Source: Vanrija pseudolonga (taxonomy: Eukaryota > Basidiomycota > Tremellomycetes > Trichosporonales > Trichosporonaceae). Taken from it: 64,000 nt of DNA. The stretch's first letter is position 1. Each line of letters opens with the position of its first letter. Below are positions 1 to 22,037 of the stretch, in pieces. The stretch spans positions 2,976,001 to 3,040,000 of the forward strand of contig NC_085852.1 in assembly GCF_020906515.1 (NCBI RefSeq). Direction: 5' to 3'. A model generated the notes under the pieces. That model made no database searches and was not told the DNA's origin. It saw nothing but the letters and a program-made list of their open reading frames with translations. A program made the translations under genes and the position numbers.

Positions 1-2
1 TG

Positions 3-878
3 TTTGACGGCTCGGCGCTGAGCTACGACGACGTCGCGCCGCTCGCCGCCGCCGTTAAGGACAACACAACCCTCGCGCGGCTGTGTGTCGGCGCATGCAA
101 CCGCCGGCTGTACATGCCCATGCGGCAGAGCTGCCAGTGCTTCCAGCCGCTCACCAAGATGTGGGGCCACGACGGCGCGTCCGGCCACCTGGGGCACATC
201 GCGCCCATGCTCCTCCGCAACCGCGACATGACGGCCAAGGTGCACAAGGCGGCGCTGCGCAGCCTCGTGCCCGCACGGATACTCCTGCGCGCGGCCGACG
301 TCGCGGCGGACACGAGCTCCGAGCTCTCGGGGTCAGCGCCGCGCGTCACGGCCCAGCCGTACCGCTCCAACGGGTTCACGGTCAAGCGGCCCGTCCGGAG
401 CCCGCCGCGCACGGCCGCCGTGCTGAGGTTACCCAGGGAGGCGCTGGCGCGGATACTGCACTTTGCGGCCGACGAGTCGGCGCTGCTGACCGACGACCAG
501 GTCGCCGTCGTGCTCGAGCATGCCGCCGACCCCGCCGCGCTGTCGAGACTCGCGCGCGAGATTGGGAGCGGTAGGACAGATACTGTCGAGAGCAGGCAGG
601 TGCGCGTCGAGTGGCTGTCCAAGGGCGGGTTCACGTGGGAGCGCGAGGTGGCCGCCAGGATACGGCTGCAGGCGCCGCCAGAGAAGGCGCCAGTGCCCGT
701 CAAGCCGCTGGCTGCTGTCCGTCCACCAGTACAGGCGCGGACGCCGTCCCAGACGGGTGGGGGGACGCTGCCTCGGCGGCCATCACAGACCCAACAGCCG
801 GCGCCGGCACCACCGCCGCCGCCAGCACAACAGCCGCTCAAGTCTGCGCTGAAGCAGCCGTCGAGCCGACTGATTTAG
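3..878 (+). CDS. Partial F-box-like family protein (family A, copy 1), C-terminal part
   Basis: An open frame enters from the left edge and stops at TAG 876-878; the start lies outside the window. The roughly 291 visible residues carry the marks shared by five genes of this window: a Cys-rich stretch, the motif LRSLVPARILLRA (near residue 94), an F-box-like LPREALARILHFA (near 144), and WLSKGGFTWE (near 203). The last 70 residues are Pro/Gln-rich low complexity. The LPxE..IL signature resembles an F-box core, which in known proteins binds Skp1 of SCF ubiquitin ligases. That role is an inference and weak by eye, because the motif is C-terminal rather than N-terminal. The closest relative here is 2396-3661. 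No characterised homologue is recognised. Confidence 0.75.
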   Translation, partial: FDGSALSYDDVAPLAAAVKDNTTLARLCVGACNRRLYMPMRQSCQCFQPLTKMWGHDGASGHLGHIAPMLLRNRDMTAKVHKAALRSLVPARILLRAADVAADTSSELSGSAPRVTAQPYRSNGFTVKRPVRSPPRTAAVLRLPREALARILHFAADESALLTDDQVAVVLEHAADPAALSRLAREIGSGRTDTVESRQVRVEWLSKGGFTWEREVAARIRLQAPPEKAPVPVKPLAAVRPPVQARTPSQTGGGTLPRRPSQTQQPAPAPPPPPAQQPLKSALKQPSSRLI

Positions 879-2395
879 GTTTACGACCAGACGATGATGA
901 GAGAAGGGCCAGAGGGGAAGGACGCTTCAACGAACATTTTACGTGTACATGGCATATAGTCTGTAGGTTAGGTTATGATATAGCTGTAATGTGAGAGATG
1001 CAATGCGATGCACAAGGTCGAGATGGCCGTGGCCGCGGGCACTGCCTGGCCTGCCCACTGCCCGATCAACTACTGTAAGCCGGCAGCGGTGACATTGCCC
1101 CGCCCAACGTCATACATGATCTTGCTACTGCTAGCTCGTGCGTAAAGGCCGTAAAGCGCAAAGGAGGAATGGAACGTGGCCTGGGCTGGGCGTTTGGGGG
1201 TGTCACGCTTTGGCTCCACCGACCAACCTTACAGCGGCCGTGCATGCAATTACGTGTGACTGGCAAGGCGAGTGAGGTGCAAGGTGGTGGTGTTCGTCGT
1301 CGTCGTCGCCGCCGTGCCCCTCACCACCTACCACTTGTCGCCCAAAGGCCGTGAGTGCCTGGGTGTTGTCGTCCGAGGGGTGCTTGTTTTGAACACGCCC
1401 GCTGGAGTTGTCATTGCCGTCGTCGTCGTCGTCGGCCCCCCCCCTCCTCCACCCACAGTCGATCTAATCAGCATCGCCCGCCAGGCCAGGGCAGGGGAAG
1501 GCGCGGGATGCGTGGCGTCCGGCAGCGGCGGCGGCTACGGCGTTGATGCAATGCTGCCGAACTGCACTACACTAGCCTTGCGCGGAAGAGGCCTTGGTTG
1601 TTGTTGCCAAGTCGAGGGTTGTGCCCGATGGGTAACTTGGCCCCTGTGCTCTTTTTCCCCTTCCGCTGCTAGAGTTTGCGCCGCCCCTTACCCCATCTTT
1701 GGGTTCTGCCGCAATCCTCTCGACAATCGCCAGTCCTCTGGAACGGGTAAGGCGGTGGGTGGGTGCGCGGGTGGTGTGGGCGTTGCGGGCTGAGCGGGTT
1801 GCAAGGAGGCGCAGGGGCTGGACCCCTGCCTTGTTTAGACTCGGAGTTGCTTGCTGCTGCCGAGCTGCCTGCCGCTCTGCCCACTTCCACTGCAAATAAA
1901 CAAACAAACCGCCAGGCCCTTGGACGACGTCGAGGCACGCCGCTCGTCGTCATTCTCTGGTTTCAGACTCGGGCGATATCACGTGCGGGGCGGTGATGAT
2001 GGCTCCGACTTTGTGCGTGACGGCCGTGTTCTGCTGATCGCTCTAGCTCGACAAGCAAGGGGCAACCAGCGCGGGGTATTGCAGAGAGTGCTGGGCTGCC
2101 TGGGTAGTCGGCTGTAACTCACAGACTTGTGCAACAAGGGGAAGAAGAGGGGCCCGGTGTGGTGGGTCGCCGGGTCCTGGCGGGCCTGGCTTGACTGCCT
2201 TGCCTCGCCTTGCTTGGCTCTGCCTCGTTGTCGTCCGTCGGTCCGAGCGAACGAGCCACTCCCCCGCCGTCGAGGTGCAATGTCCCAGAGGCCTCGAGAG
2301 GGGGCGTCAGAAATGAGGCCTTGACATGCGTTGCAGATGATCGCTCTTCCTGTCTTCATTGCTCCATCCCCCATTGCTCTGTTCACGTTGCAGCA
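879..2395. other. Intergenic region upstream of family A copy 2
   Basis: No supportable gene. It holds short GTC/CGT trinucleotide runs near 1290-1310 and 1415-1435 and a C-run near 1437-1450. The last few hundred bases should contain the promoter of the gene starting at 2396. Short open frames on both strands lack family features. Confidence 0.5.
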
Positions 2396-3661
2396 ATGAA
2401 CTTTGGCACTGTCGAGTGTGAGTAGCCAGCCCCCTGCCCGACACGCCGGGCCACCAGACCGACCAAAGCGACTGACCCCCCACCCCAGACTTTGACATCT
2501 TCATCCAGGCCACGGCGCAGACCGACAGCCTCCAGTGGTCGGCACAGCCCACCGAGCCCGCGGCAGTCGGCCACGGCGCGCTGGACCCGACCACGGCGCT
2601 CACTCGCGTCTACCGTCTCCAGTTCCGCGAGAAGCCGTGGGAGCGGCGCGCGAAAAAATGGCACAGCGACAAGCCGACGCTCCAGCTCCAGGGAAAATGG
2701 CGGACGGTGCGTTACATGCAAAGGGGGTGGTGGTGCACTCGGGCCTTATCTCAGGCCAGGCCAAGGAGGCTCCAGCTTACTAGGCTCGGATGCTGACACA
2801 CCCACCCAGGTGCACGACATTGAGACCATTGTCGGCCGGCTGAACGCCTCGCGGATCGACGACCTGGCCATCAAGATCTCTGGCGGCCCGCTCGAGTCGT
2901 ACGCCAAGCTGTTCGACACGCTCAATATCCCGGGCCTGCGCAAGCTGTGCGTCGAGGACGCTCTCCCAGCGTCGGCCGGCACGCCGCTCGAGCGCTTCCT
3001 CCGCTCGCCGCGGGCGCACGGGCTCGTCACGATCGACCTCGACGGCGGCTTCCTGCACGCCAAGGAGGTGGGGCGGATCGCCGATGCCCTCCGCACCACA
3101 AACCGGACAGTCACCCGCCTGTGCCTGTCCGAGTGCTACCTCTCGCAGCACCGGTGCGTGTGCGACCTGCGCCAGAACATCTGGTCGGAGCGCGGCGACA
3201 CGCGCCACCCGTACATCCAGAGCATCAAGCTCGCCGAGGACCGCAACCGGTTCCTCACGACGCGCGTGCGGCAGGCAGCGGTGCGCGCGCTCGTGCCTGC
3301 GCGTATCCTCCTGCGTGCGCGCGCACCAGAGGACTACGAGTCGAGCGACTCGGACCAGTCGGCAGAGACGTTCGCGTCGGCGTCGTCGACGACGAGCTTG
3401 GCGGGACATATCAACAAGCTGCCGCGCAACGTCGTCATCCGCATCATCCAGTTCGCGAGCCGCGACCCCGCCGCGCTGAGCGGCGCGCAGCTCGCGCGCA
3501 TCGTCGACCATGCGTCTGACTCCGAGTCCCTCAAGCGTGTTGCGCTGGCGCTCAGCACCGCCGCTGACCGCGGACAGACACACAACCTCGCCCGGCTGGA
3601 ATGGCTCAGCCGCGGCGGCTTCTTCTGGGATCACCTGCGGCCCGCAGTGGCGGCGGCGTGA
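2396..3661 (+). CDS. F-box-like family protein (family A, copy 2)
   Basis: Three exons by splice motif and frame: 2396-2417, 2489-2706, 2810-3661, giving 363 residues. Donors are GTGAGT and GTGCGT and acceptors CAG; the first exon encodes only seven full codons. The N-terminal half has short hydrophobic/charged blocks suggesting degenerate leucine-rich segments. It is followed by CVCDLRQNIW, the shared motif RALVPARILLRA, an F-box-like LPRNVVIRIIQFASRDP, and WLSRGGFFWD near the end. Copy 1 ends in the same order of motifs, so the two are tandem duplicates about 1.5 kb apart. A SCF/F-box adaptor role is only an inference. The exon 1 start was chosen because the adjacent family member 20782-22037 begins with a similarly tiny first exon ending in the same phase. 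Confidence 0.75.
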
Positions 3662-3995
3662 GGAGGGAGGCGGGTGAATGGCCGCGTGCGTGGGAAGTGC
3701 AGGTCGCCGGACGACACTAATAATGACCTTACGATGTGTATAATACCAGATGCAGTTGTAGACCAGACTACCCATGGACAGTCTGAACGGGTTTCGGAGG
3801 CTGGTGAGAATGCCGCGCGGACAAGGTGCTAGGCACCGACCATGTCGTAAACGACACAAACCAAACAAGTGCATCTGTTCCTAACAACGTTCTTTTGATT
3901 CCTTTAACAACCAACTGCAGCAGCGATGACTGAAACCCTCTACCCTCCTCCCTTCACTCGTCCGTGTTGCAACTCGCTCTCCTGCCCTCGCCCGC
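3662..3995. other. Convergent intergenic region
   Basis: This region lies between the stop of the plus-strand family gene and the stop of the minus-strand permease, so it holds two 3' ends. No gene or clear repeat is seen. Confidence 0.5.
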
Positions 3996-5633
3996 TCACG
4001 GGGTATACCTGAAGTGGGGGTTCTGCCTGTCGGTGAGGTCCTCCTCGGGCTTGAAGTCGTGCACACCGTTGAGCGCCTCGAGGCGGTCGCGCTTCTTGTT
4101 CTCGTGGCGGTAGATGAGGTCGATGCCGACCATGCACACGCCGGTGAGCACGACACACAGCACGCAGGTGAGGTACGCAGGCGTGTATTTGGGTGCGTCC
4201 TTGTCGCGGAAGATCTGCGGGCCGATGAGGTTGCCGACGCAGTAGAAGATGAGGTAGAGGCCGTTGACGGTCGACTTCTTCGTCTTGCCCGCGACGTTGG
4301 ACGTAATGAGCGACATTGTCGCGGCGAGGCAGATGATGTACGGGATGACAATGTAGCAGCCCACCAGGCGCCCGATCTTCATGTGCGGCGGGAGGAGCCA
4401 CACCAGACACAGGCCGACGACCGAGATGCAGCACGGCACAATGCCCACCAGGCAGCGGTTGCGCAGCTTGTCGCCGAGCCACAGCCAGCCAAAGTAGTTG
4501 AACGCGAGCCACGAGTTGACCATGCCGAGGAGGAGCGTCTGGAGGGCCGTGAAGCCGAAGCCCTGGATGATGATGGTGAAGAAGCTGGGCGCAGGGGTCA
4601 GCGATATCTCGACGAGAGAGCGAGCTTCCACGGCGCCGCCACTCACTTGGTGAGGAGACCGTTGGGGATGCACGTCAGGATACCGACGAGGCAGTACATG
4701 AGCGTGAGGGGGTCCGTCAAGGCCTCCTTGACCTGGCTCCACTCCCACTTGCTCTCGACAGGCTGCTGGTTTCCGCGGACGCGGATAGCGGCGAGCTTCT
4801 TCTCCTCCTCGGTGAGGAACCACGCCTTGTCCGGCGTGTCAGGAATGAACAACAACACCAGGATACCCGAGACGGCAGTCATCAGGCCGAGGAGGATATA
4901 GATGACCTTCCACCCTGGGATGGCGAGCTTGTGCTCCATGTCGGCCTTGACGAGCCCGTACGCAATCGCGCCGCCAAAGATGTATCCGAAGCCGTTCATC
5001 GCGAACCATACGCCCGTGCGCGTGCCCTGCTCGCGCAGCTTGTACCACTGTCCCGTGAACAGCGCGAGCGCGGGCGTGATGGACGACTCGAAGAAGCCGA
5101 GCAGGAACCGGATCACCATCAGGTAGATGAACCCCTTGTCGATGGCCATGAGGCACAGCACGGCGCCCCAGATGATCGCGTTGGTGCCGGTTACTTTGGC
5201 GATCGGGAAGCGCTGCAGGACGTAGCACATGGGGTACTCGCCGACCAGGTAGCCCAGGTCTGCGCGCGGGCGTCAGCGCAGGCGAGCGGGCGGGCGGGCG
5301 ACGCCACTCACAGAAGATGGAGCCGAGCCACGAGTACTGGCTAGTGTTGAGGTGGTTGGCCTGGCGGAACCCCATGATGGCTGCGTAGGACATGCAAGTC
5401 TTGTCCAACTGGGCTGGTCAGCGCTCCTTCTCTGCTATCGTGGGGCCACACACAAACTGCAGAGCATACACGGCACACAGAATCGGCAAGAGGTGCTTAT
5501 CCGCCTTCTTCCTGATCCGCACGTCGTCCTCCTTGGAGATGAACAGGTCCGGGTCGGCGTCGGCCGTGCGCACGGCCGTCGCGGCCTCCTTGTCGAGACT
5601 GGAGCGGGAGGGGGAGGGCTCGAGCTTGGTCAT
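3996..5633 (-). CDS. MFS anion:cation symporter, DAL5/allantoate-permease family (copy A)
   Basis: Four exons: 5633-5454, 5408-5312, 5259-4647, 4584-3996, giving 492 residues. The family imports allantoate, ureidosuccinate, vitamins or similar carboxylates by proton symport at the plasma membrane. Family marks are LDKTCMSYA early in the chain, GYLVGEYPMC (about 94-104), RFLLGFFESSITPALAL (about 144-160), the cytosolic loop after TM6 with DKAWFLTEEEKK, and the terminal HENKKRDRLEAL. Hydrophobic segments fit 12 membrane spans, and the length is typical. The substrate cannot be told from sequence. A close tandem relative follows upstream (6643-8398); the two share the first two intron positions and a 97-base exon 2. 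CGATAA/GATAA words occur upstream (near 6077 and 6157), compatible with GATA-factor nitrogen control, an inference. Confidence 0.92.
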
Positions 5634-6642
5634 GGCGTGCGTGTTCTGAGGTGTTGTGGTGGGATGTGAGCGCAGGCACTTGCGCGTGGAGAAGAAACAT
5701 GCCTCGAGACGCAGCGAACGCTTTAAGGCCTCGCGAGATCAATCACGCCCAGCGGCACTGGCATTGGAGCCCCACATCCCCACAGCGGCCCTGCCTCCCT
5801 GCCCTGGGCTCGACGTGTCGCTAATCTCGACAAGGACCGGGTCATCCAGCCGGCCAGCCTCAGATGTCTGTCTGCCTGCTGCGCTTCGCCGCTACCCTCT
5901 CCCCCTCCCCCACCCGACCCATCTTCATGCACACCGCACGCCATTCGCTCGGCCGCACCCCGACCGAGAGCGCCACACCACCTCCTGCCATTCGTCGACA
6001 ATCAGCGATTCCCTCGGCCAGCTACAGGGATCTCGAACCCAAGGTACCCAAGGTTGACCCGCTGGCGGCGCTAACCGATGATAACTCGACAGTGTGGTCG
6101 GGTCGGGAAAATTGGGCCGAATTTGTCCTACGCCGCGCAGACACCGTTGATTGCTGTTATCGAGCGGTGGTTTAGCCGCTGCGCCAAGCGCAGCTGGTGG
6201 CTCTCTGCGTCACGCGACTGGACTTGACTGTGGCATGTTGGCATGCACCGAATACCGTTGGCCTGTATCGTGCACGTACGGCCGCAGCTGCGTATGTTGC
6301 CTGCTCGGCCTGCGACGTGAATTGATATGGATATTGACACGGTGAAGTCGGCGTGCAGAGTCATCGCTGCTGACTCGTTCCCCCCGCCCAATTCCGCGGC
6401 TGCGATTTCCAAGACTGACCGCTGTCACCTAGCTCCATCCCACACCCTGGGAATCACCTGGATCCCCCACCTCACCGTATCTAGAGCGGGGACAGCGGCG
6501 ATCGCCGTGTTGGAAAACACCCGCTCAGCATCTCTTGGAAAATACAAGCAGCTGATTCATGTTTATCTCTGCTCGCCCGATAGGCACGGTTAAAGCGACG
6601 CAGGTGCCACTGTCATCCCACAGTACGTAGCCACTCGGCTGT
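5634..6642. other. Promoter region of permease copy A and 3' flank of copy B
   Basis: No gene is supportable. A CTTTAAAG-like AT element lies near 5719-5728, about 90 bases upstream of the permease start. GATAA-type words lie near 6077 (plus strand) and 6157 (minus strand), and could serve nitrogen-responsive GATA factors. Confidence 0.45.
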
Positions 6643-8398
6643 TCAATAAGTGTACCGGAAGTGGGGATTGGTTCTGCTCGATTAGCCAATGCCTGCCACA
6701 GCGTTCAACACCACTACCACCCACCTGTCGGTCAGGTCCTCGGACTCCTTGAACAGGTGCACGCCGTCGGTGCCCTCCAACCTGTCGCGCTTCGCGTTTT
6801 CGTGCCGGTACACAAAGTAGATGGCCACCTGCGTTGCGCCCACGAGGGCAACGCAGACGATACACGTCACGTAGCACGGCGTGTAGTTTGGCGCATCCTT
6901 GGCTCGGAACGTCTGCGGGCCAATGAGGTTGCCCACGCAGTCTGAAGAGTTAGGGTCTGCTGTCTAGCTTTAGCTCACAGAAGATGAGGTAGAGTGCATT
7001 GACTGTCGTCTTCTTGGTCGTTCCGGCAACATTGGACGTGATCAACGACAGGGTGATCGGCAGGCAGACAATGTACGGGATGATTCTGTGGCTATTTAGC
7101 TGGGCAAGAAATGGCTCACTCACAGATAGAACCCAGCCAGGCGCCCCGCCTGCATGTGCTTCGGGAGGGCCCACACGAGCGCGAAGCCTGTGATCGACTG
7201 CGCGCAAGGGAAGAGGGTCATCAGGTTTCGATTCTTGAACTTGTCACCCAGCCACGGGTAGACAATGTAGTTGATGCCCAGCCAGCTGTTGATCATGCCG
7301 AGGAGGAGCGAATCGGCCGTGGAGAAGTTGAGGGTCGAAAGGATAATGGTGAAGAAGTTTGTCGTGACACCGTTGGGGATACAGGCCAGAATGGCAACAA
7401 GTGAGTAAAGCCAGGTCTAACACGTCAGCGGCATTCGAGCTCGTCAGCTTACAAGTGGGTCGCGCAACGCCTCCCAGAACTGAGGCCACTCCCAAGCATT
7501 GTTGGTCGGCTGCTGGTTCTCCCTCGTCCTGATCTTGACGAGGCGGCGCTCCCTCTCGGTGAGGAACCACGCGGTGTCCGGACTGTCAGGAATGAAGAAG
7601 AGAACGAGGAGCCCCGCAGCGACGGTTGCGATACCGCAGGCGATGAAGATGATCTTCCAGCCGGCAATGGCGAGCTTGTGCTCGTTTGTCGCCTTGAGTA
7701 GGCCCCATCCCATGGCGCCGCCTACAATGTATCCGAGGCCGTTCATCGAGAACCACAGGCCAGTGCGGGTACCCTGCTCACGCAGGCGGTACCACTGGCC
7801 TGTGAAGAGGGCCAGGCCTGGTGTGATAGACGACTCAAAGAACCCGAGGAGGCTGGGCGTCAACAATGTTTGGACCTTGCACTCACAATCGGACGACCAT
7901 CAGACCTGCAAAGTTGTGCGCGACAGCCATCATGGCGAGGATGGCACCCCAGACAATCATGTTGGCCGCCGTCACCTTGGCGATCGGGAACTTTTGCAGC
8001 AGAATGCACATAGGATACTCGCCGACGAGGTATCCGAGGTCTGGGTGTTTGTCAGCCACGAACGACACAACACCCCTTTCGACGCAACGCACAGAAGATG
8101 CTGCCCAGCCACGAATAGTCGCCCAGCGAGAGATGGTTGTCCGGTCTAAAACCCATGACGGCGGCATAGCTCATCGAAGTTTTGTCGAGCTGGCATCAGC
8201 TTTGCTTTCCAGCGCACCACTCACAAACTGGAGAAAGTACCCGAGGCACAAGATCGGGAGCAGGTGGAGGTCGGCCTTGCGCTTGAGAGCAACATCCTCC
8301 TCGGGCGTGAGGACGTAGCCGTCCAGCTCGTCGCTGTCGGTCCGAGCCAGGGTGGGAACAAGGTCCCCCGCGATCTTCTCCTTGTCGTCCTTGGTCAT
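6643..8398 (-). CDS. MFS anion:cation symporter, DAL5/allantoate-permease family (copy B)
   Basis: Eight exons: 8398-8225, 8189-8093, 8040-7887, 7852-7453, 7416-7124, 7085-6979, 6941-6725, 6673-6643, giving 490 residues. The last 31-base exon is placed because it restores a C-terminus ending LTDR-TNPHFRYTY, matching copy A; without it the frame would run into unrelated sequence. Family marks are LDKTSMSYAAVMGF, GYLVGEYPMC, LLGFFESSITPGLALF and ERERRLVKIR. The role is proton-coupled uptake of an organic anion such as allantoate at the plasma membrane; the substrate is unknown. Copy B has seven introns against three in copy A, so A appears to have lost introns or B gained them after duplication. 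It is clearly an intact gene. Confidence 0.92.
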
Positions 8399-9752
8399 GT
8401 CGATCAGTGGGCACGGACTTCACGGCACGTCCTCTCCCAGTTTTAAAGACCTCCTCTCCCCCCTCAACGAGCCTCCACTTCGCTGTATCGGGGAGTATTC
8501 GGAGAAGACGTTGTCGCCATCGCTCGAGATCAGTCGCGAGTGAGTGGGTAGTGAGTGCGCGATCCAGACCCGCATGCCCGACCACCGAGAGTGGAGGAGG
8601 CGAACATGAGACGTTGTTGTTGGTTGAGCGTCACGAACGGTGGGGAGGGACAAAAGGTACGGGCGTGGGATCTACCTTCTCCGCCACCGAAGTTGAGCAC
8701 GCATGTCTTGTCAACGAGCACGCAACGTGTCGATCGCGACGAGCGTCTGAGCTGGGCTGCATGAGCTGCTCGTCAGCGAGCCGCAGCCACACATCCGCGC
8801 CATATCCACCGCAGCCGCGCCACCAAGACGACAGCAACGGGTAAATTCGCTTATCTCGCCATGGCAGGCCAGTTGATGTCGCCTATCCTCAAGCCACCGC
8901 CTGTCGAGTTGTCAACCGCAGGCGCAGGCAGTGAGCGGAGAAATGAGCAGAAATACTCCTGTGCACCTGGGCGCGGCCCGTGTCGGCGGGCGGGGCACGC
9001 CGTGGGGCGAGATAACGCCGCTGGCGGCGCCGATATCACACGCGGCTCGGCTTGATATCACACTTGGACCGCCAGGTCTGGGCTCGGCGCCCTTGGCTTG
9101 CACGTCAAAGTCACGCGCATTGACATTCCGCGTCGATCATGCGGGGTAGGCGGCAGTGCGGGGTTTGTCGGTGAGCAGCATTGTGGGCGGGTGACTGATG
9201 TTGAGAGGAGGGGGAGGGAGGGGGTGGGACGTCGATTGTCGCTCTGACTGTTGACTAGGGGTTGGTGACTGCGTGCGTCTGCAGACCTGAGGGGATGGGG
9301 AGGCCGGAGGAGGGAGCATGGTCGCTGGAGAGAGGTGCTAGACGTGAGTTTGTGTGTGTCAAGGGCAAGAAGAGTGGAGAAGGTGAAGAAGGAGAAGGGG
9401 AGTAAGGGGAGAGGGCCATGGCGGTGATGACGGCACGTGCCCCCACCACCCGTGATCCCCAGCAGCTCAGCGCGACTGACTTTGTCTTCCAAGCCACCCA
9501 AGCTCCCAAGATGCAACAATGTAGCCAACTCTAACACTCCTCGTGCATTATACTTTTCTACTACTGTACAAGGGCAACACTGGACCAGCCAAGCGTGCAA
9601 GGAATCCGTAGTCAGTTATAGCGACGTGACCAGGTCGGGGATCAGTTTTAGGACCTGAGTCTAGTCCAGTCAGTTAAAGCGACATGACCAGGTCGGGGAT
9701 CAATTTAAAGACGTGATCTAGTCGAGGTCGTTGCGGGGGTGGGTGAAGTTAC
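8399..9752. other. Intergenic region upstream of permease copy B, including a 3' repeat block
   Basis: No gene is supportable. A TTTAAA element lies at about 8440-8446, close upstream of the permease start. Pyrimidine/purine-skewed tracts lie near 9200-9420. The right end carries the repeat block annotated separately at 9578-9723. Confidence 0.45.
9578..9723. repeat. 3'-flank repeat block with two tandem units, shared with 18530-18606
   Basis: The 16-mer CACTGGACCAGCCAAG at 9578-9593 is followed by two imperfect tandem units, about 9610-9667 and 9668-9723. Each reads like AGTCAGTT, GCGACRTGACC, AGGTCGGGGATCA, then CTAGTC. The same 16-mer and one unit recur at 18530-18606. Both blocks lie just downstream of the stop codons of the small minus-strand genes 9753-10304 and 18636-19601, so the repeat marks a shared 3' flank. 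Confidence 0.8.
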
Positions 9753-10304
9753 TCAGTAGCCGAACTCGTTGAGCTGGTAGAGGCGGCACTTGAGGTCGTT
9801 CTCGCGCTGCACCATGTCGTAGGCCTGGCGGGAGCGGAACGAGAGCGGGGGTGGGGGTGGGAGGGCCTTGTGGACACCGGCGGTGGGGCTGGGGAGCGCG
9901 GGGAGGGGCTTACGGGCCGGCGAGGGCGGGGGCGTGGGGAGCGGCGAGATGGGGACGACGGTGAACTCGTCGTAGCCGAAGAGGAAGTTGTCCTCGTCAA
10001 TGTCGCAGCGGTCGCACTTGACGCGCAGTGCCGAGTGCCTGGGCTTGCCCGTGGCGCGGTGGCAGCGCTTGTGGTGCGGGAGGGTGCATGGGGCGGGGCG
10101 GTAAGCGACAAGAGTCGGCTCGGTGATGCGCGCGGTGTGCGAGGTGAGCCAGGTGCCCTCAAACTTGGGGTGAGCGATGGCCGTCGGAGCAAAGTCCTTG
10201 GCGTGGATGGTGTAGTGGCCGGTCGACGAGGCGGCGGCGGGGTCGTTGGGGCGCGTGCGCTGGATGTGGGCGATCTCGCGGGCGTGGGCGTAGAGGCCGG
10301 ACAT
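9753..10304 (-). CDS. Small Cys-motif, proline-rich protein (family B, copy 1)
   Basis: Single exon, 183 residues, no intron. The middle holds a Cys/His group (PCTLPHHKRC near 73-82, then CDRC near 97-100), which could bind one zinc ion. It is followed by a proline-rich tract (LPTPPPSP and similar, about 123-155) and a C-terminal charged segment ending LYQLNEFGY. There is no signal peptide or membrane segment. The gene shares flanking DNA with 18636-19601 both upstream (TATA-like palindrome 125 bases before ATG) and downstream (repeat block). I do not recognise the family. Proline tracts suggest SH3/WW-type binding, but that is speculative. A lineage-specific fast-evolving gene is the simplest reading. 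Confidence 0.65.
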   Translation of the reverse strand: MSGLYAHAREIAHIQRTRPNDPAAASSTGHYTIHAKDFAPTAIAHPKFEGTWLTSHTARITEPTLVAYRPAPCTLPHHKRCHRATGKPRHSALRVKCDRCDIDEDNFLFGYDEFTVVPISPLPTPPPSPARKPLPALPSPTAGVHKALPPPPPLSFRSRQAYDMVQRENDLKCRLYQLNEFGY

Positions 10305-11328
10305 TGTAACAGTGTGTAATGAGTGTGGGGTGTGTGCGGTGGTCGCTGTGGTAGTTGTAGTAGTGGTGGGGCTGGCTATGAAAGCTGGCGGGGGACGGTG
10401 CTGAAGAACTTGGAGAGGCGGGGGCAGGGCATGCTTTTAAGCCTGCTGCTGGTGGGAGCTGTCGGCAGAGTGCCATGTCGTGCTTGTTTGCTGTGGTATC
10501 CATTGCGGAAAGCGAGACGGTGAGGTCGATGAAAGCGGTCGCGATGTCACGAGCGCATCTGGACGCGTCGGAGTGCTAATGACTTTGTCAGGGAAAATTC
10601 AAATGGCACGAACAGGGTCATTTAGAAAAGTGTTCAACGTTGTAATGATTGCCAAACAACTGTCGCAAACGCTTGTGGCACCTGTCCGGACTGGGAACCG
10701 CAACCAACCTTCATACCTCACGACTGAATGCTCGCACCACCTCGCACTCTGCTCGCACCAGGTCCAATTGAAGTATCTCTTGAATGCATTGTACATTGCA
10801 GCGTGACGCATATGCAGGTTACGCAAACATCAGGCGGGACTGACTCCTGTAGCCCTGGCCACCGCCAGTTGCGATGTCATCGCTGAATTCGAGCGTGACG
10901 GCGTCAGGCCTTGTTGCGCGCGGGCAGCAACTCGCCCAGTATGTGCTTTGGGTGGGTGGTGAAAGCAGAGATTGTGTTGCCCGTGGAACTCGTCACGTGC
11001 ACCAAGAACGCCTAGGGGCCGGACCCAAGCAATGCTTAGCCACCAGTGTCATGGGAGTGGGTCAGGACGGGCAGTCATGAGCAACGTGTGAAATGAAGCC
11101 GCCGGTGTCTCTGACCCCCCAGAAACGAGGTGTCATACTTAGCGAGGGGGCTGGGGCCTAGGCGTCATGAGCTCATGCACGTCAGTTCACATCACCCTTG
11201 TCAGAAGCCTTAGAACTGCGTCAGACCGCTCCGAGGCATACAAGTACATTAGAATCTAAGGCTACAAGCATGTGAATGTCCAAGACCGGGAACTAGTACG
11301 AGTCCGAGTAGACGGGGTATCCACGGGC
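10305..11328. other. Promoter region of family B copy 1 and 3' flank of copy 2
   Basis: No gene is supportable. The first 300 bases upstream of 10304 resemble the upstream region of 18636-19601. Shared words are AGAGGCGG and GCATGCTT-TTAAGC at 10429-10442, GCATCTGGACG near 10550-10560, and AATGGCAC near 10602-10609, in the same order and at nearly the same distances from the ATG. Confidence 0.55.
10429..10442 (-). promoter_or_regulatory. TATA-like palindromic promoter element
   Basis: The plus strand reads GCATGCTTTTAAGC. It lies 125 bases upstream of the family B copy 1 start. The near-identical GCATGCTTATAAGC lies 124 bases upstream of the other copy (19725-19738). Both are preceded by AGAGGCGG. 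Conserved word and conserved distance support a core promoter element. Confidence 0.6.
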
Positions 11329-11818
11329 TCAGGCCTGCACGCGCTCGTTAAGGCAGACCGTCGATCCGGAAGCGGAGCGGTGCGTGGGCGCAAAGGCAGA
11401 GTAGAGGCGCGGGGGGTTGAGTTCGCGGAACGAGCTGCGCGGGTGGTCGAACATGGCGTCAAAGTCGTTGCGGAGGAGGATGGGGTGGCGCGTGAGGGCG
11501 GGGTACTCGGTGTGTGGGCGAGGCGGGCGGGATGGCTCGGCCAGTTCCTGCGAGTTCGCGTTCGCGTCGAAAGTGCGCTTGGTGCAAGCGGGGCAGTAGA
11601 CGTGGCTGCTCGTGCGCGCCTTGATGGCCTTGCGGGCGAAGACCTTCTGCGCGGGGCTCGGCGGGTTGCAGGTGATGCAGTCGCGGTGCGCGGGGTGCTC
11701 GAGCTCCGGCTGGGAGACGGCGGCGCGGTCGCGGGTGAGGATGCGAGCGATGGCGGTGTCTGGGGAGTCAGTGCCTGAAGGGAGGGGAGGGGAGGGGAGG
11801 CGGAGGGGACTTACTCAT
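11329..11818 (-). CDS. Small zinc-ribbon-like protein (family B-like, copy 2)
   Basis: Two exons, 11818-11815 and 11774-11329, giving 149 residues. The intron is 40 bases, has GTAAGT and CAG ends, and contains a GGGGA-type purine repeat on the plus strand. The start codon plus one base form the whole first coding exon. The protein has CITC and CPAC pairs about 28 residues apart (C-x2-C ... C-x2-C), a zinc-ribbon-like spacing, then DMFDHPRSSFRELNPP near the end. A TTTTATC (GATAAAAG on the coding strand) lies about 140 bases upstream. No signal peptide. Grouping with 9753-10304 and 18636-19601 rests on size, strand, location and paired cysteines, not on clear alignment. No known family is recognised. 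Confidence 0.6.
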
Positions 11819-13787: not shown

Positions 13788-15173
13788 ATGCCCCCCAAGC
13801 TCCTCAAGCCCCCTGGCGACAAGGCCAAGACCTCACTCAGCGACAACGAGACCTCCCAGATCTATCCACCCGACAACCCACCGCCGCCGGTCAAGCTCCC
13901 CCGTGTTTACGGGTACTCGGATGCACGTATGCGTCAACTCCAAGAGGAAAATCATCCTGTCGTCGCCCCCTTGGAGCGGGCCGAGACCCTCCAGTTCAAC
14001 GAGGCCTGGGTCAAGCTCTTCCCGAAGGGCGTCCCCGTTGACGACGAAACTCTCATGGGCATCAACCACATCGACCACCAGCTCCTCTTCAACGCGTTTG
14101 TCTCTCTGCTCTACAAGTATCCCTTCTTCATTCGCCAGGGCTATGACTTCTTTGAGGTCAACGTGATCGCCTTCAAGTACAATATCAATGTGGTGAGTGA
14201 CGCGACGCGACGTGCCTCCCCTCTCACCCTCACCCACTAAACAGTCCCAGGGATTCACCTTACCTTATCTCAAGGAGTTTACTTTCGCGCTCCACACGGA
14301 GCGTATCCGCGACCTCCGCGTCGCGCTTCCAATCAACCATACCAACCACGGAGACATCTACCGCCGCTTCACATGCTTTCTCCTCCAAGTGCTTGCAAAC
14401 CCGAACCTCGACACCCTGTTCCTCGATCTTGAGGCGGACTTCCACTTCCCATACCCCATGCTCGACTTATACCTTAGCTCTCCTCGTTCGGCTGGGCTTC
14501 ATAGGTTCAAGATCGGTGTCAAGGACAGCTTCTTTGCCCAGAAGCTCATCCGTGGCATTCCGTCTGCCAACACAGACCTGCAGCTCATCTGCTTTAACAA
14601 GTGCAAGGCCACCGATGCCGTCGCGTGTAGCTGCAAGGCCCGTTACCTTGGCCCCATTGATCCTGGTTACCATGTCCTGTTCAGTGCCGTGCTTGACCGC
14701 AACAAGGAGCGTGACCTTCGCCGCCGCGCCGCGGCGCCGCCATGGAAATCTTGAACTGCGCGTCGGTTCTCCTCTCTGGCGCCACGACGATCAGAGACTT
14801 CGACAGCTTGCCGCGCAAATCCCAGCAGCGCATCAACAACATCCTCACCCAGTCACTCCCTCCGGTACCAGCCCGTGCTGAGAATCTTCACCTCCCCGGC
14901 TGCTTTGTGACCTTAAAGTACCGCCGAGAGATCGCCGGTGACGTCGCTTGGGAGCCCGCAATCACCAAGGCGGAGGCTGTTTACATCCTCAAGAACGCCG
15001 GGTTAATCAACCATCTTCTCAAGAGCAACGCCACTCGCATGCTCCACGAGAGGCCAGAGATTGGCGCCCAGATCATCTGGGATGTCCTTCTCCGTGCTCC
15101 GTCTCGCAAGCAGCTCGCCGCCCAGGTGTGGGAGGGCGGTACCAGCATGGAGGCTGAGTGCAGTCGTCGTTAA
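13788..15173 (+). CDS. F-box-like family protein (family A, copy 3), frame break near 14720-14745
   Basis: Exon 1 is 13788-14192 and exon 2 begins at 14245 (GTGAGT donor, AACAG acceptor). Exon 2 reads LPYLKEFTFAL, LLQVLANPNLDTLFLDLE, IGVKDSFFAQKLI, a Cys cluster (VACSCKA) and HVLFSAVLDRNKERDLRRRA. The frame then closes at 14754, while the family-like sequence continues in another frame from about 14742 (FDSLPRKSQQRINNIL, an F-box-like LP motif) to a stop at 15171-15173. The paralogue 15846-17176 runs continuously across the equivalent place (HVLLANAQ ... NQAAAKFF), and no GT-AG pair fits the gap. A one- or two-base slip in the GC-rich run is therefore likely, either real or an assembly error. 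Unbroken, the protein would be about 440 residues. Confidence 0.65.
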
Positions 15174-15845
15174 CACGGGCTCCATCCCCCTGCCCCTCAT
15201 GATCGATTCTTTGACTCCGAGTACACGTGACAGCACGGACTGAACGCCAGTGTCATGCATAGTAGTCTGCGCACTTCAGCCTGTTGTGGAAGATACTAAT
15301 AGACTAATGCATACATACTAAGCTTGACGACCTGCCCTCACGCCGCCGCCCCCATTCCCGCGCTTTTTACAGTTTGAGGCTCGCTGTGGATCCCCCAGAC
15401 GATGGCGTACGCGCTGAGCTGATAACTCCGAGCTGGCGCCCCCGATATGTAACGCCATCACCTTCTTGTCCGGGATATTCATGCTGACGTTTGGTCTGTA
15501 GCGGTCGCTTGAGGCTCAAGACGGCAGATTGCAGGCGCCGGAGCCACCGCCGGCCCACACTGGCCCCGTTGTTCGTCAGAACCGTGCGCCACCTCATTGT
15601 GTAATTTTTATTCACCATATGCATAGCTATTGTCATTATTTCCACAGTCTGTCTTGAGCCTGGTATGTACAGAGTCCAGGCAAATTGTGCTTATGTCGAT
15701 GAGGAGTGGGGATGGGATGGGATGGGATGGTACGATGCGGACATACATATACTGTTGGGTGGGCTCAGCGAGGAAAGGTGATGCGTCATGGCGGTGGAGG
15801 TTGGTGACGGTGACGCTGGGGACGGACAGCAACGCTACCGCCGTC
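15174..15845. other. Convergent intergenic region with GGGAT repeats
   Basis: This region lies between the ends of family A copies 3 and 4. It contains four GGGAT-type units at about 15710-15731 and AT-richer sequence near 15290-15320. No gene is seen. Confidence 0.5.
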
Positions 15846-17176
15846 CTATGCAGCGTCGTAGTTGATAGACTCGAAGGGCTCAAAGCCGCGCAGGTTGGCC
15901 ATGGGAGCCGCGAGGATCTGCTTGAAGAACTCGTGGCGGTTGACGTCACGGTTGTAGTCCTCCTCATCGTCGCCGAAGCAGAGCGCCTCCAGCATGCGAC
16001 CGAGCCCGCGCCTCGAGAGGGCGTACTTGATGATGCGGTTCATCTCGTCGTCGGTGAGAGGCGACATGGGTGCGGGGGCAGGCGGAGCAGCCGGGGCCGG
16101 CGGGCCGGTGGGAGGGCTCGCAACCTCGGCAGGACGGGCAGGCGGGCCGGCGCGAGCGTTCGGAGCCTCGGCAGGAGGGGCAACGATGAAGATGACCGTG
16201 TCGGTGTAGGGGGCGGGCTGGATGGCGAAAGACGCGAGAAGCGCGCGAATCTGGGCCTCGGTGGGAGTCGTGGTGATGGGTTCGACCTCGAGGTACGACA
16301 GGACGAGGCGGATGACCTCGAGCGGAAGAACCCCGTTGACTGTGGAAGGGCTGGAAGGCGCGACGGGCGAGGACGAGTTGCCGACGGTCGGCGAGGCCGC
16401 ACCCGGAGGAGTGGGGGTGTGGGGCGCGAAGAGCTTCGACGTCGTGAAGGTCTGCACAAAGAACTTGGCGGCGGCCTGGTTGCGGATGAGCATCTTCTGG
16501 GCGTTGGCAAGGAGGACGTGGCTGGTCGCCGTGTGACCGCGGAAGGTCTGCGGGCAGCCGCAGCCCTCGTCCTCGGTGGGAGAGGCACAGTTGCACACCG
16601 TGATCTGGAGGAGGGTGCTGTTGACGGGGATGATGCTGGCGGTCATCCAGCGGGCCCAGTAGTCGGTGGGCTGGCCGTGTCCGAAGATCTTGAGGAAGTG
16701 GAGGCCGTGGCTGCGCCCTGACTTGAGGTAGCGTACGAGCTGGTCGTGGATGTGGTGGACGGGGACGTTGGCGACCAGGAGGCTCGTGATGCCGGGGTTG
16801 TGCAGCGTGTCGATGAGGTACGTGACGAACCGGCGGCGGTGGTCGGTGAGGCGGTGGCCCGTGGACTCGGTGGGCGCCTCGACCCACACCTGGCGAATGG
16901 GGGAGCGGTTGAGCGCGCGCATGAGCTCGGGGAAGAAAGCCTCGTCCTGGGGGGTGTCAGCATGCCGGCCGGAGAGAAAGAGAGACTCACGAGCTTGAGG
17001 AGGCCGTCGCGGATGAGCGAGCCGAGCGTGAGTGTGACGACGTTGTCCTCGACGCTAATGAAGAGGGGGTAGTTCACGAGGAGGCGCCGGAGCGGCGCCA
17101 GGGCCGGCTTGTCGAGGAGGCTGACGTCGACGAACGTCTTGAGGTGCAGGCGGACGACGAGGGTGGGCTTGGTCAT
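15846..17176 (-). CDS. F-box-like family protein (family A, copy 4)
   Basis: Two exons, 17176-16991 and 16946-15846, giving 428 residues, with GTGAGT and CCAG splice ends. The order of blocks matches copy 3: an N-terminal segment with LRRLLVNYPLFI and LTLGSLIRDGLLKL, then FVTYLIDTLHNPGITSLLV, LKSGRSHGLHFLKIFG, a Cys cluster (CNCASPTEDEGCGC), HVLLANAQKMLIRNQAAAKFF, an F-box-like LPLEVIRLVLSYLE, and an Ala/Pro-rich linker. The C-terminal helix-like block is DEMNRIIKYALSRRGL. Because it is uninterrupted it serves as the reference for the frame break in copy 3, which it faces tail to tail. It could be an SCF substrate adaptor; this is inference only. A TTTAAA element lies at about 17245-17252, 70 bases upstream. 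Confidence 0.8.
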
Positions 17177-18635
17177 GGTGCGAAAGAAGCGAGGGGGGCA
17201 AGGAGGGAGGCGAGAGGGGGTAACCAAGAGAGGAGCCCAGGCCATGTTTAAAGCACTTCGCGCCCTCGCAGCGGGCAGCGAGTCGAGCAAGGAGACGAGG
17301 GGGGCGGCGCGGCAGTGAACCGGTGTGGGGTGTACTTGCAATGGGGTAAGAGGGGGCAATGGGAGTAAGAGGAGTGTAGAGTGTAGAGTGTGGATGTCAA
17401 TGCTGGGCAACACCCACGCCCAGCAGACGGCCACGGCCACGGCACCGAGTAAGTGTGTGCTGCGACCGCAGGTGACGAGGTGCATGGGTGCGTGGTCGAG
17501 CGGTCGAGTCGAGGCGGACACACCATGGGCCGCGGCGTGGACGTTGGCCGCCGCCAAGTGACACACACAACCATCCAAGTCTCTCGAAATAGCGTTATCT
17601 GCAATCCAGGGCTGGGAGAGGGGCGCTGGGTGGATGGGTGCCGTGCGGCAGAAGCAAGCGCTGTAAACCCAAACAACTCGGCCGCCACGATCGCCGGTGG
17701 CGCCGCCTATTTCCACCTCGCGCGCGGAGCACGCATGCAATGCACGGCCAATAATGCGAACAGCTTGCCATAAGCTAGGTGTGCTGTAAAAGCGTTATTG
17801 TTGCGCGCTGGCGGCGTGCTGACGATCGAGCGCACACACACTCGCACCAGCCGGCCCTCCCTCGTCAGGCGCCACAAGCGACGCGACAACACACACTTAT
17901 TTTCCCCGGCTGTAGCCCTTGGCGATTGGTTCTTCCGGCGGGTGTGTAGCTTATGGTGGCGCTGGAGGGCTGAGAAAAAAGGCAGTGTAGAAGGGCTTGT
18001 TGTGGGGAGCGAGCGAGGGTGCGGCGCTGTGTGGCGGCTGCGAAGGTGCAGTAACCGGGCACGCCAGGTGCCCTTGTCGTGTGAGTGGGCAAATCAGGGC
18101 GTTATCGGTCGGTTCTGAGACGCGAAACGTGCCTGTAGAGTGACTGGGAGAGTATGTACGCACTGGCGCGACGGCCGGCACCAAACCTCGCGCCGTCACC
18201 CATTCCCCACGCCTGCACCCGTTCCTCTTGCTCGACTGTCCTTCATCCCTACTTATCTCTCCACACACCTGTCCTCCTTCCTCGCCGTTACCATGCCCTG
18301 TTACCATCTTCACACGCCTTGCTGTTGGAGGTAGCAACCCCGGCCAGCTCCGACTCGACCAGCCTATCCCCGATGACTCGACGCTCGCCACCCCTCCTCG
18401 TTTGCCACCCGTCGCCACCTCAAGTCGCCACCCGCCCTCAAGTCAGTCTCGTCCTCCGATCACAGTGCAACAGTGCAGCGAACCAATACACTACTAGCAT
18501 TATAATCCTACACTACTACAACAACGGCACACTGGACCAGCCAAGTGTGAGTCAGTTTTACGACGTGACCCGGTCGCCGATCCTAAAGGTGGGACTTGAT
18601 CTGGTCCGTGGGTGCGGTGGTGCCGTGTCTGTGAC
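17177..18635. other. Intergenic region between family A copy 4 and family B copy 3
   Basis: About 1.46 kb with no supportable gene. The left part is the promoter of the minus-strand gene at 17176. The right end holds the repeat block 18530-18606 annotated separately. Confidence 0.45.
18530..18606. repeat. 3'-flank repeat block, single unit, shared with 9578-9723
   Basis: CACTGGACCAGCCAAG at 18530-18545 is identical to 9578-9593. It is followed at 18550-18606 by one copy of the AGTCAGTT ... GACGTGACC ... GGTCG unit that is present twice near 9610-9723. It lies about 30 bases beyond the stop of 18636-19601. Confidence 0.8.
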
Positions 18636-19601
18636 TCAGAACTTAGGCGGGACGGGGAGTGGGTTCTGCTCGAGGTAGCGCGAGTACTCGGCGTGCCTCT
18701 GAGCGTGCTTCTTGGACTCGACGGGGATCCTCTGGACAGCGCGGTACGCAGAGACCTCGGCCTGGGCGCGAGTCGGGGCGGGCTTGCGCGGAACAGAGTA
18801 GGGGTTGGTGGGGCGGTCAGACGAAGCGACAGTGGGGAGGGGCTTGTACTGGTCCGGGAGCGTGTGCGTGACCTCGACGTCGTAGCGCGTGCGCGTCGAC
18901 GAGACCGAGACGACCGAGTCGCGGTTGCGAATCTTGGCGAGAGCCTGGTCGAGGGCCGAGACGGGGTTGGCACTGGGCTGGACGAGGCGCTGAGGCTGGG
19001 GCGAGATGATGGCGGGCGCGACCTGCGAAGAGGCGGTGTGGTACGACGAGGTCGAGACCATCGAGTCGCGGGGCGACGCGGCCGTGTAGTAGCTCGAGGC
19101 CGACGAGACGGTCGAGGCGCGCGACGAAGTGGGTGGGGTGGCGGGGAGGTGGTACGACGCCGGGAGAGTGTGGCGGTGAGGTGGGGTGGGCAGAGCCTTG
19201 TTGACCTTGGGCGGGGTGGCGGGCGGGGTCGGGAGCGCCTTGGCGACCTTGAGTGGGGCCGTCTTGCCAATGCTGGCGTTGTGACGAGCCCACGGGGTGC
19301 CGGAGGGGTGAGCGACCGAGGTGAGGTACTGGTAGTCGACCGCCGTGGCGTGAGCCTGGGCGGGGTTCGGGTTCTGCAGAACCTTGAGCTTGCGGTACTC
19401 CTCCCAGCAGCGCTCGCAGTTGATCTTAGCGAGGTGGGGGAGGGCGGGGTAGAGCGCCATGAAGCGCTTGGCGGCGTCGGGGCGCGTGCAGACGGGGCAC
19501 TGGGGGTGGATCGGGGCGAGCTCGGGCGAGAGGTTGATGCTGATGGGCGTCCACTGGAAGGTGGAGCCGGAGGTGGTAGCGGTGGCGGTCGAGCGCGACA
19601 T
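18636..19601 (-). CDS. Small Cys-motif, Pro/Ser-rich protein (family B, copy 3)
   Basis: Single exon, 321 residues. The N-terminal part has CPVC (near 36-39) and CERC (near 62-65), a C-x2-C ... C-x2-C zinc-ribbon-like arrangement. It is followed by a low-complexity central region with KALPTPPATPPK-type proline repeats (about 119-140) and a Ser/Tyr/Ala-rich stretch. A charged C-terminal tail has HAEYSRYLEQNPLPVPPKF. No signal peptide or membrane segment is seen. Upstream and downstream flanks match those of 9753-10304, so the two arose by duplication of a unit including promoter and 3' end, although the proteins now share little beyond paired cysteines and proline tracts. Function is unknown; protein binding or zinc binding is guesswork. 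Confidence 0.65.
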   Translation of the reverse strand: MSRSTATATTSGSTFQWTPISINLSPELAPIHPQCPVCTRPDAAKRFMALYPALPHLAKINCERCWEEYRKLKVLQNPNPAQAHATAVDYQYLTSVAHPSGTPWARHNASIGKTAPLKVAKALPTPPATPPKVNKALPTPPHRHTLPASYHLPATPPTSSRASTVSSASSYYTAASPRDSMVSTSSYHTASSQVAPAIISPQPQRLVQPSANPVSALDQALAKIRNRDSVVSVSSTRTRYDVEVTHTLPDQYKPLPTVASSDRPTNPYSVPRKPAPTRAQAEVSAYRAVQRIPVESKKHAQRHAEYSRYLEQNPLPVPPKF

Positions 19602-20781
19602 GGTAAGAGGTGTGATGGTGGTGGTGGTGCTGTAAGAGCGGAGTGGTGTGATGGTGGTGCTGGTACAGCGGTGGTGGTGGAACCCAATGGGCGATGAAGA
19701 AGAAGTTCGAAGAGGCGGAGGGGTGCATGCTTATAAGCCGCTCTCGCTGGGGGGTGAGCATGCAGGACGTTGTGTTGAGAGCAAATTTGCGCGACGAGAG
19801 AGGCAACAACAGCGACGACGCAAGTGTCGGTCGCGACGAACGCATCTGGACGATTAGGATGTGGCTCTAATGCGCCACTCGGATTTTGTGACATTTGTCA
19901 AGGTTATTAGGAAATTTCCTAATGGCACCGACGGCACCTTCCCTTTTCGTCGGCGCCGCTTCCGCAAACGTCGTTGAGCGCGACGCAACGGGTCGCGAAC
20001 ACGCCGGCGGCGGGGTTCGGCACACGGCGTTTGAGCCGTGTGCATCCGCTGTGGAGGGGAGGTGTGGCGCCGGTGCATGGGTGCTTGGGCGGGGTGGTTC
20101 ATGGAGGGGGTGGGTGGTGGTCGAGGAGGAGGGAGGGAGTCGGTGAGCGGTGAGCGCCGTGCGGCGGCGCCGAGGGGTCGAGGGCACGTCGCTGCGTGCT
20201 TGAGGGTGCATGAACCGGTCGTGTCGCCGTTCAACGCCACCGAGAGACAGTGATAGTGGTTATCGGCTGTACCAGTGACGAGGCCTTAGTGAAGGGGTGC
20301 CATGCCAGGCGCCATGCCCCACCTCCACTCGAACGAAATCAGGCGCGTCGCCGTTGTCATCGACTACATAGACACCGCAATTCACCGCGGGCGGCAGCGA
20401 CACTGCGCTCAAAGTCCGTCACCCGGCAGTCTCGCTCCAGCTCGTGGGGAGGGGCTAGCTCGTCGACGTGAGCTGTATGCTAGCGCGCTTGCGTAGTAGT
20501 TTGACGTGGCGTGCGATGTACATTGTGTCTGTGCCAAGGACGTGTCGGGTGCCCCGGGCGCCACGTAGTTCGCACACCATATACGCCACCGCGCCACCTC
20601 CACCGCCGCTATCCACCACCACCACGGCCCACATGGCCGCCGCCGCCGCTCGCACCGCCCTATGCACTCGCTCGACGCCTTCCGCGCACTGCATCTCACT
20701 CTTGCACGTCACTCGATCCACCAAGGCGATGGGTACATAACTCTGCGGCCGGAGCACCCAGCCAGCGCCTTGCACCCCAGC
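19602..20781. other. Divergent intergenic region (family B copy 3 and family A copy 5 promoters)
   Basis: The first 330 bases match the upstream region of 9753-10304 in word order (AGAGGCGG, GCATGCTTATAAGC, GCATCTGGACG, AATGGCAC). No gene is supportable in the remainder. An open frame at 20455-21090 on the minus strand is antisense to the family A gene. Confidence 0.5.
19725..19738 (-). promoter_or_regulatory. TATA-like palindromic promoter element
   Basis: GCATGCTTATAAGC lies 124 bases upstream of the start of 18636-19601; its core GCTTATAAGC is a perfect palindrome. The counterpart is at 10429-10442. Confidence 0.6.
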
Positions 20782-22037
20782 ATGTGTCTCCACAGTGCGT
20801 GCGCGTACGCGGTGCGGAACCCCAAACAACCTGCTAACGACAACCAACCAGACCTCGACGCCCTCTTCATGGCCGTCGCGCCGCGCCAGCCGCGCAACGC
20901 CTGGGGCCGGCGCGTCGACCCGCTCGCGACGCTCCGTGACCTCGGACATGCCCGCCACGAGTTCCTCAAGCCCAAGCCCATGTGGCCGGGGTACGACACG
21001 CTCGCGACGGGACAAGAGAGCCTGGTGCTCAGCGGCAAGATGTACTACTCGTTCATGAGTGGGGTGCGTGTGGGACGGCGCACGGCGCACGGGGGTGACT
21101 GCTGACAGGAGTACAGCATTCGACCGCCTGGTGGATCGTCAGCTGCCTCAACAAGGTTGCCCTGACGCACCTCGTCATCCACCTCACGTCGGACGGCTGC
21201 AACGCCGACTTCCAGAAACGCTTCTTCGACCAGTTCTACGTGCCGAGCATCAAGACGCTCATCTTTGCCGACGCGCTCGACGTCGACTCGGTCCCCTCGA
21301 TCGTCAAGTGGCTCTCCACGGCCGGCGCGACCGTCACGGCGCTCAGCTTCTCGGGGCTCAAGTACCCCAAGGACAGCTACGAGACTGTGCCGACAGAAGA
21401 AAACCTCGCGCCGCTGCTCGACGCGCTCACAAAGCACAAGGGCCTGCACCACTTCTGCATGTGCCGCGGGACCATGTGCACCGCCGACAGCAAGGGCTTC
21501 TGGGTGCGCAATGGCAAGGGCAAGCTCTGCCGGCCAAGCGACGTATTCATGGGCTTTGCGAGCCCCGAGGCGCGCCGCGCGCTCGATAACAGGATAGACG
21601 GCAACGCGACCCCAGCGAACGAGGTGCGCCGCGCCATCAGGGACACGCTTGTGCCGGCCCGTATCATCATGCGTGCGACTAACGCCGGGTTGCTGAGCAA
21701 GACGGATGCCTGGTCGACGTGGATCTGGGGCGGCGAGGCCGCCACGTCGGACAACCCGCTCCTCCGCGCCGAGGGCCCGCCGCGTCTCCCGCCCGAGATC
21801 ATGCTCCACATCCTCGGCATGCTCTCCCCTCCGGGGGTCCTCAGCGCCGCCGAGCGCAAGCGCCTGTATGACGAGGCGGGAGACAAGGTTGCGCTCAAGG
21901 CCCGCGCGAAGGAGGTCATCGCCGGCGCCAAAGAGGGGATGACCATGGACCAGATGATGGAGGAGTGGATCGTGAGCAGGAACTTTTTGGCCGGGTATGG
22001 CGTCAAGCACTTTGTCAGGTGGAAGGCGATCAGTTAG
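20782..22037 (+). CDS. F-box-like family protein (family A, copy 5)
   Basis: Three exons: 20782-20794, 20852-21063, 21117-22037, giving 381 residues. Exon 1 is only 13 bases and ends in the same phase as exon 1 of copy 2. The second intron uses GTGCGT and the second of two nearby CAG acceptors, which is the one that keeps the frame. Features are LVIHLTSDGCNADFQ and YVPSIKTLIFADALDV (leucine-rich-repeat-like), CMCRGTMC, the shared motif RDTLVPARIIMRA, and the clearest F-box-like sequence of the family, LPPEIMLHILGMLSPPG. It ends VKHFVRWKAIS. It lies close to the 3' end of the transcription factor gene at 22104. The SCF adaptor role is inferred from the LPPE motif alone. Confidence 0.75.

Follow-up and report, generated by a model that had tools for sequence, protein, structure and literature searches.

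Gene organization in the window

The window analysed here, a 64,000-nt stretch of the genome of Vanrija pseudolonga (Trichosporonales; C4:2976001-3040000; genome 24.87 Mb, 9 contigs), contained five related genes whose products had an N-terminal half of leucine-rich repeats (LRRs), followed in genes 1, 2, and 5 by a recognisable C-terminal helical core that is F-box-like. Gene 1 (3–878, plus strand) was represented by its C-terminal part, which comprised the last LRR units, a four-cysteine (Cys4) motif, a long helix, the F-box-like core, and a proline-rich tail; its N-terminal exons were placed to the left of the window. Gene 2 (2396–3661, plus strand) was complete and encoded 363 residues in exons 2396–2417, 2489–2706, and 2810–3661. 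The V. albida orthologues of gene 1 (P0003, Q8F55_005442) and gene 2 (P0001, Q8F55_005443) shared identities of 85.4% over 287 residues and 91.1% over 361 residues, respectively. The LRRs of gene 2 (2813–3140, plus strand) were predicted in P0001 to form four strand–helix units followed by a short strand. The Cys4 motif of gene 2, CLSECYLSQHRCVC, with its surroundings was located at 3116–3168 (plus strand), and the C-terminal F-box-like core and tail, the stretch entered in alignment A4, at 3407–3634 (plus strand).

Genes 3 and 4 were divergent members. Gene 3 (13788–15173, plus strand) was composed of an exon at 13788–14192, an LRR exon from 14245, and a tail frame running to 15173. Its reading frame shifted near window position 14,740, in a GC-rich stretch, and the gene was not one open frame; this break in the assembly may reflect a pseudogene, a sequence error, or unusual splicing. 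Gene 4 (15846–17176, minus strand) had the exons 17176–16991 and 16946–15846, both identical to those of the V. pseudolonga protein LOC62_04G006448 (P0004), and the public protein agreed with the intron. Its core was interrupted by a long Pro/Ala-rich insert. Gene 5 (20782–22037, plus strand) consisted of exons 20782–21063, of which the start was uncertain, and 21117–22037, and carried the clearest F-box-like core within the window.

The relationship among these genes, which an earlier note had proposed from inspection of the same DNA, was borne out by a profile hidden Markov model built from 29 family sequences. Genes 3, 4, and 5 were left out of the profile, gene 2 was included, and gene 1 entered by way of its V. 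albida orthologue. When the profile was run against the 987 open reading frames (ORFs) of at least 40 residues in the window, only the five loci were matched. The held-out genes gave E values of 1.6e-29 (gene 5), 9e-18 (gene 4), and 1.2e-15 (LRR exon of gene 3), and the represented genes gave 1.6e-58 (gene 1) and 3.7e-103 (gene 2). Outside the five loci, no window ORF scored better than E = 0.028, and five shuffled sets gave 0.22 at best.

From the N- to the C-terminus, the layout was an N-terminal block, a phase-0 intron, the LRRs, often the Cys4 motif, a long conserved helix, and the helical core. The phase-0 intron, as read from the DNA, was located directly upstream of the first LRR in all five genes. 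In 13 of the 25 testable rows across the family, an AG preceded the LN-type codon at a distance of exactly 30 bases; the runner-up offset, as judged by eye, was seen in 6.

Family size and genomic clusters

The family extended far beyond the window. Gene 2 as a lone query matched 75 stretches of the genome at E ≤ 1, and a consensus query matched 95 at E ≤ 0.001, six of them with an internal stop. After four stretches found with other queries had been added, the set merged into 72 loci, or 71 if a single gene accounts for the two neighbours at C4:2410 kb; the counts are lower bounds, and the weakest matches may be chance. Both the LRR part and the C-terminal part were seen in 51 of the 72 loci. 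Contig C4, which makes up 13.8% of the genome, carried 52 of the loci. The clusters contained 18 (C4:2.405-2.522 Mb), 18 (C4:2.927-2.998 Mb), 12 (C3), and 9 (C4:0.307-0.329 Mb) loci. The suspected expansion in clusters was thus confirmed on a far larger scale than had been supposed. The five genes of the window formed the right-hand end of the cluster at C4:2.927-2.998 Mb, which began about 49 kb to the left of the window, and the left bound at position 1, once drawn for an island of these genes, could not be kept.

A tree of 30 rows joined gene 2 and gene 1, the latter represented by its V. albida orthologue, as sisters with support values of 99/96, and a clade with canonical LRRs from C4:2.4-2.8 Mb was starred at 100/100. 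Four of the 27 inner branches were starred; genes 4 and 5 had long branches, and their placement was unsure. Changes of cluster label along the tree numbered 11, compared with 17.8 after shuffling, and none of the 200 shuffles was as low. Local duplication with fast divergence of the receptor half is the best explanation for the approximately 70 loci. The family member L040 included a 140-residue stretch tested from LOC62_04G005374 (P0008).

Homologue searches returned 12 distinct proteins, including three from V. albida and three from V. pseudolonga, and missed most of V. pseudolonga's own family. Since about 70 loci were present in V. pseudolonga alone, these searches were far from complete, and absence from other organisms is not claimed. 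The relatives P0006, P0007, and P0010 belonged to other assemblies, which contained members with canonical LRRs that shared 48–50% identity with P0010, whose best match in the V. pseudolonga genome had 49% identity, so that the family may reach beyond V. pseudolonga and V. albida. No literature was found on gene family expansion in Vanrija or on the F-box in Trichosporonales, and the available text of PMC7026411 and of PMC12820176 contained no F-box.

Leucine-rich repeats, Cys4 motif, and long helix

The N-terminal half, earlier described as LRR-like, was assigned to the ribonuclease-inhibitor class of LRRs, an assignment that is well supported by sequence comparison and by predicted folds. 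A profile of 31 sequences matched ribonuclease inhibitor (1dfj) among PDB chains with an E value of 1.3e-17. The Pfam families LRR_6 and LRR_1 were each detected in 5 of 31 sequences, with best E values of 6.8e-6 and 1.4e-4, respectively, and an NCBIfam scan of the 31 members gave weak matches in one or two alone. The predicted folds of P0001 and P0010 both displayed the alternating strand–helix arrangement of a horseshoe. The fold of P0010 was closest to ribonuclease inhibitor and NLRP3. The fold of P0001, the orthologue of gene 2, ranked CARMIL first, with tropomodulin and leiomodin within one Z unit. These three are LRR actin regulators with a short LRR and a capping helix, and the ranking is what would suggest such a role for the Vanrija proteins. 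That role is nevertheless highly improbable: the LRR fold is generic, P0010 and the sequence profile both placed ribonuclease inhibitor first, and 70 divergent copies would be ill-suited to a conserved target such as actin.

The similarity to the LRRs of NLRP proteins, together with the clustering and fast divergence of the copies, would also agree with NLR-like immune or allorecognition receptors without a nucleotide-binding domain, in which the LRRs would sense foreign or non-self cell contents and the tail would signal without ubiquitin. We regard this as improbable; neither the 31 sequences of alignment A1 nor P0004–P0012 gave a NACHT or NB-ARC match at E ≤ 1, some of these rows being without the first exon.

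The Cys4 motif, C-x(1-6)-C-x(2-13)-C-x-C, was present in 16 of 33 sequences, compared with 0.045 expected from shuffles. It was found in genes 1–4 and was absent from gene 5, so the cysteine cluster that had been ascribed to all five proteins was real in four of them. The (V/L)PARI and RNQAAA blocks, noted previously as shared motifs, were both located within a single conserved predicted helix. Mean pairwise identity was 37.6% for the core, 34.9% for the long helix, and 26.0% for the LRRs. This higher conservation of the core and long helix fits a constant tail with a single docking partner and a variable front with many.

The C-terminal core

The C-terminal LPxE core was detected by the profile in genes 1, 2, and 5 only. 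The tail piece of gene 3 had no profile match, and gene 4 matched over only a 27-residue stretch (E = 2.1). Thus, the C-terminal LPxE/LPxxV motif attributed to all five genes in the earlier note was recovered in three, and the profile recognised no core in genes 3 and 4.

In order to compare the core with F-boxes, the family alignment was aligned by hhalign to 30 canonical F-boxes from the V. pseudolonga genome, which were those with loci among 51 PF12937 matches at E ≤ 0.001. The match covered 37 collinear columns with a Prob of 90 and a P value of 1.5e-6, a family-level result with genes 3 and 4 outside the profile. The score was 27.0, and the maximum over 300 column shuffles was 16.0 (0 of 300 as high); when windows were slid along the family alignment, the core gave the best match. 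Comparison with eight F-boxes of another list gave a P value of 3.8e-5, and none of 200 shuffles was as good. Among individual proteins, P0007, a relative outside the window, passed the PF13013 cut-off (23.3 versus 21.6), and P0006 fell just under it. Weak matches to PF13013 and PF12937 were found in 6 and 4 of 31 rows, respectively. Genome-wide, PF13013 had three matches at E ≤ 0.1, all within the LRR family and none above the cut-off.

Several observations weigh against an F-box. No window protein matched a Pfam F-box family above the cut-off, the only match being that of gene 5 with 16.7 bits for PF12937 against a cut-off of 24.3, and among the 94 genome-wide PF12937 matches at E ≤ 0.1, gene 5 was the sole family member, below the cut-off. 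A profile of the C-terminal region gave seven weak matches in the PDB at E ≤ 10, with no F-box protein among them, and gene 5 alone gave nothing at E ≤ 1. The canonical VSxxWR of helix 2 was absent from the core, and the loop between predicted helices 1 and 2 was longer than usual. The poor core matches of genes 3 and 4 point the same way. Both VIA fold searches (P0001 and P0010) reached only residue ~235, and no row spanned the C-terminal core.

These observations would also be accounted for if the core were a different small helical domain, with the LPxE motif and the amphipathic helix acquired by convergence, and the proteins were LRR scaffolds or regulators without an SCF link. The core has its own nearly invariant pattern of Q, A, D, and W, and four helices, rather than three, were predicted in P0001 (residues 289–299, 308–319, 321–336, and 341–351). 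Such a domain is a serious alternative, to which we assign a probability somewhat short of even; it is opposed by the 37-column profile–profile match, which topped all 300 shuffles, and by the passage of P0007 above the PF13013 cut-off.

A canonical F-box as defined by Pfam was ruled out for the window proteins. The F-box claim therefore stands for the core as a distant resemblance only, and because of the Pfam, PDB, VSxxWR, and gene 3 and 4 results the core is termed F-box-like and the proteins are not filed as F-box proteins. The family illustrates why proteins of this kind stay hypothetical under automatic annotation, since Pfam searches with single sequences miss so divergent a core.

The ordinary F-box set was separate from the family, with none of the 51 PF12937 matches (E ≤ 0.001) and none of the 23 PF00646 matches lying in the 72 loci, as judged by eye. 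The ordinary PF12937 matches were themselves clustered, at C7:2191-2240 kb, C3:4129-4197 kb, and C5:1573-1588 kb.

Comparison with known systems

In LRR F-box proteins such as FBXL, Skp2, and Grr1, the F-box precedes the LRRs, whereas in the alignments and models of the Vanrija family the core was C-terminal to the LRRs. The Vanrija LRR also had only about five short units, and the window cores fell under the Pfam cut-offs. Table 3 of PMC7991009 lists 0–5 LRR F-box proteins per genome in fungi and 61 in rice.

A parallel in domain order is offered by the poxviral ankyrin-repeat F-box proteins (PRANC), which are described as Skp1–cullin–F-box (SCF) substrate adapters (PMC9414399). Like the Vanrija family, they are multigene, with the repeats first and a divergent F-box-like domain last. 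Unlike them, the Vanrija proteins have LRRs in place of ankyrin repeats and are encoded by cellular genes of a yeast, in which an SCF role would be an extrapolation; no ankyrin or PRANC Pfam match was found at E ≤ 1 in 31 family sequences. The F-box families of Caenorhabditis likewise have many tandem copies and species-level expansion (PMC8665587), but differ in domain order, LRR type, and organism. The RNase-inhibitor-type LRR proteins (ribonuclease inhibitor, RanGAP, and the LRRs of NLRP proteins) share the LRR class by sequence and fold; they differ from the Vanrija proteins, which have a short repeat array, a Cys4 loop, a long helix, and an extra C-terminal core.

Proposed mechanism

We propose, at about even chances, that the family consists of intracellular substrate adaptors of the SCF type, in which the order of domains is reversed, the tail constant, and the receptor variable, and which were multiplied by local duplication. 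The short RNase-inhibitor-type LRR of the N-terminal half would bind the target, and the Cys4 loop, which often closes the LRR, may hold zinc. The long conserved helix would lead through a flexible linker to the C-terminal F-box-like core, which would dock on Skp1 of the SCF ubiquitin ligase, and the target bound by the LRR would then be ubiquitylated. The approximately 70 loci would be the outcome of local duplication, after which the receptor diverged fast and the tail changed less. If the tail is functional, Vanrija, a soil yeast, would possess a receptor set of plant size.

It is a more speculative and rather unlikely extension that this plant-sized set of reverse-order LRR F-box-like proteins serves ubiquitin-coupled recognition of foreign or non-self proteins, such as those of viruses, transposons, or incompatible partners. 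About 70 clustered loci for LRR plus F-box-like proteins of reversed domain order in a single yeast genome would in themselves represent an uncommon store of adaptors, with which the use of adaptor diversity by a fungus in conflict or allorecognition would become testable.

Neighbouring genes

Three small paired-cysteine proteins were encoded on the minus strand at 9753–10304, 11332–11814, and 18636–19601. They had been regarded as a second gene family, which the comparison did not support because the three resembled one another no more than shuffled sequences did (pair scores equalled in 72, 8, and 90 of 200 shuffles); a second family was thereby ruled out at the level of sequence. Pfam yielded no family above the cut-off for these proteins, and a genome search with the protein at 18636–19601 matched itself alone.

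Two transporter-like genes (3881–5408 and 6590–8167, minus strand) were adjacent to each other between family members, and their ORFs looked alike. The ORF at 3999–4838 matched MFS_1 under the cut-off (29.5 versus 33.4 bits). To the right of the island, ordinary genes encoded a sugar transporter (35211–36869, minus strand; PF00083, E value 2.4e-78), an MFS transporter (51235–52287, plus strand), and a glutathione S-transferase (54557–55771, minus strand). Finally, a motif of ~40 bases around 'gcgacrtgaccaggtcggggatca' occurred twice, ~60 bases apart, at window positions 9608–9720.

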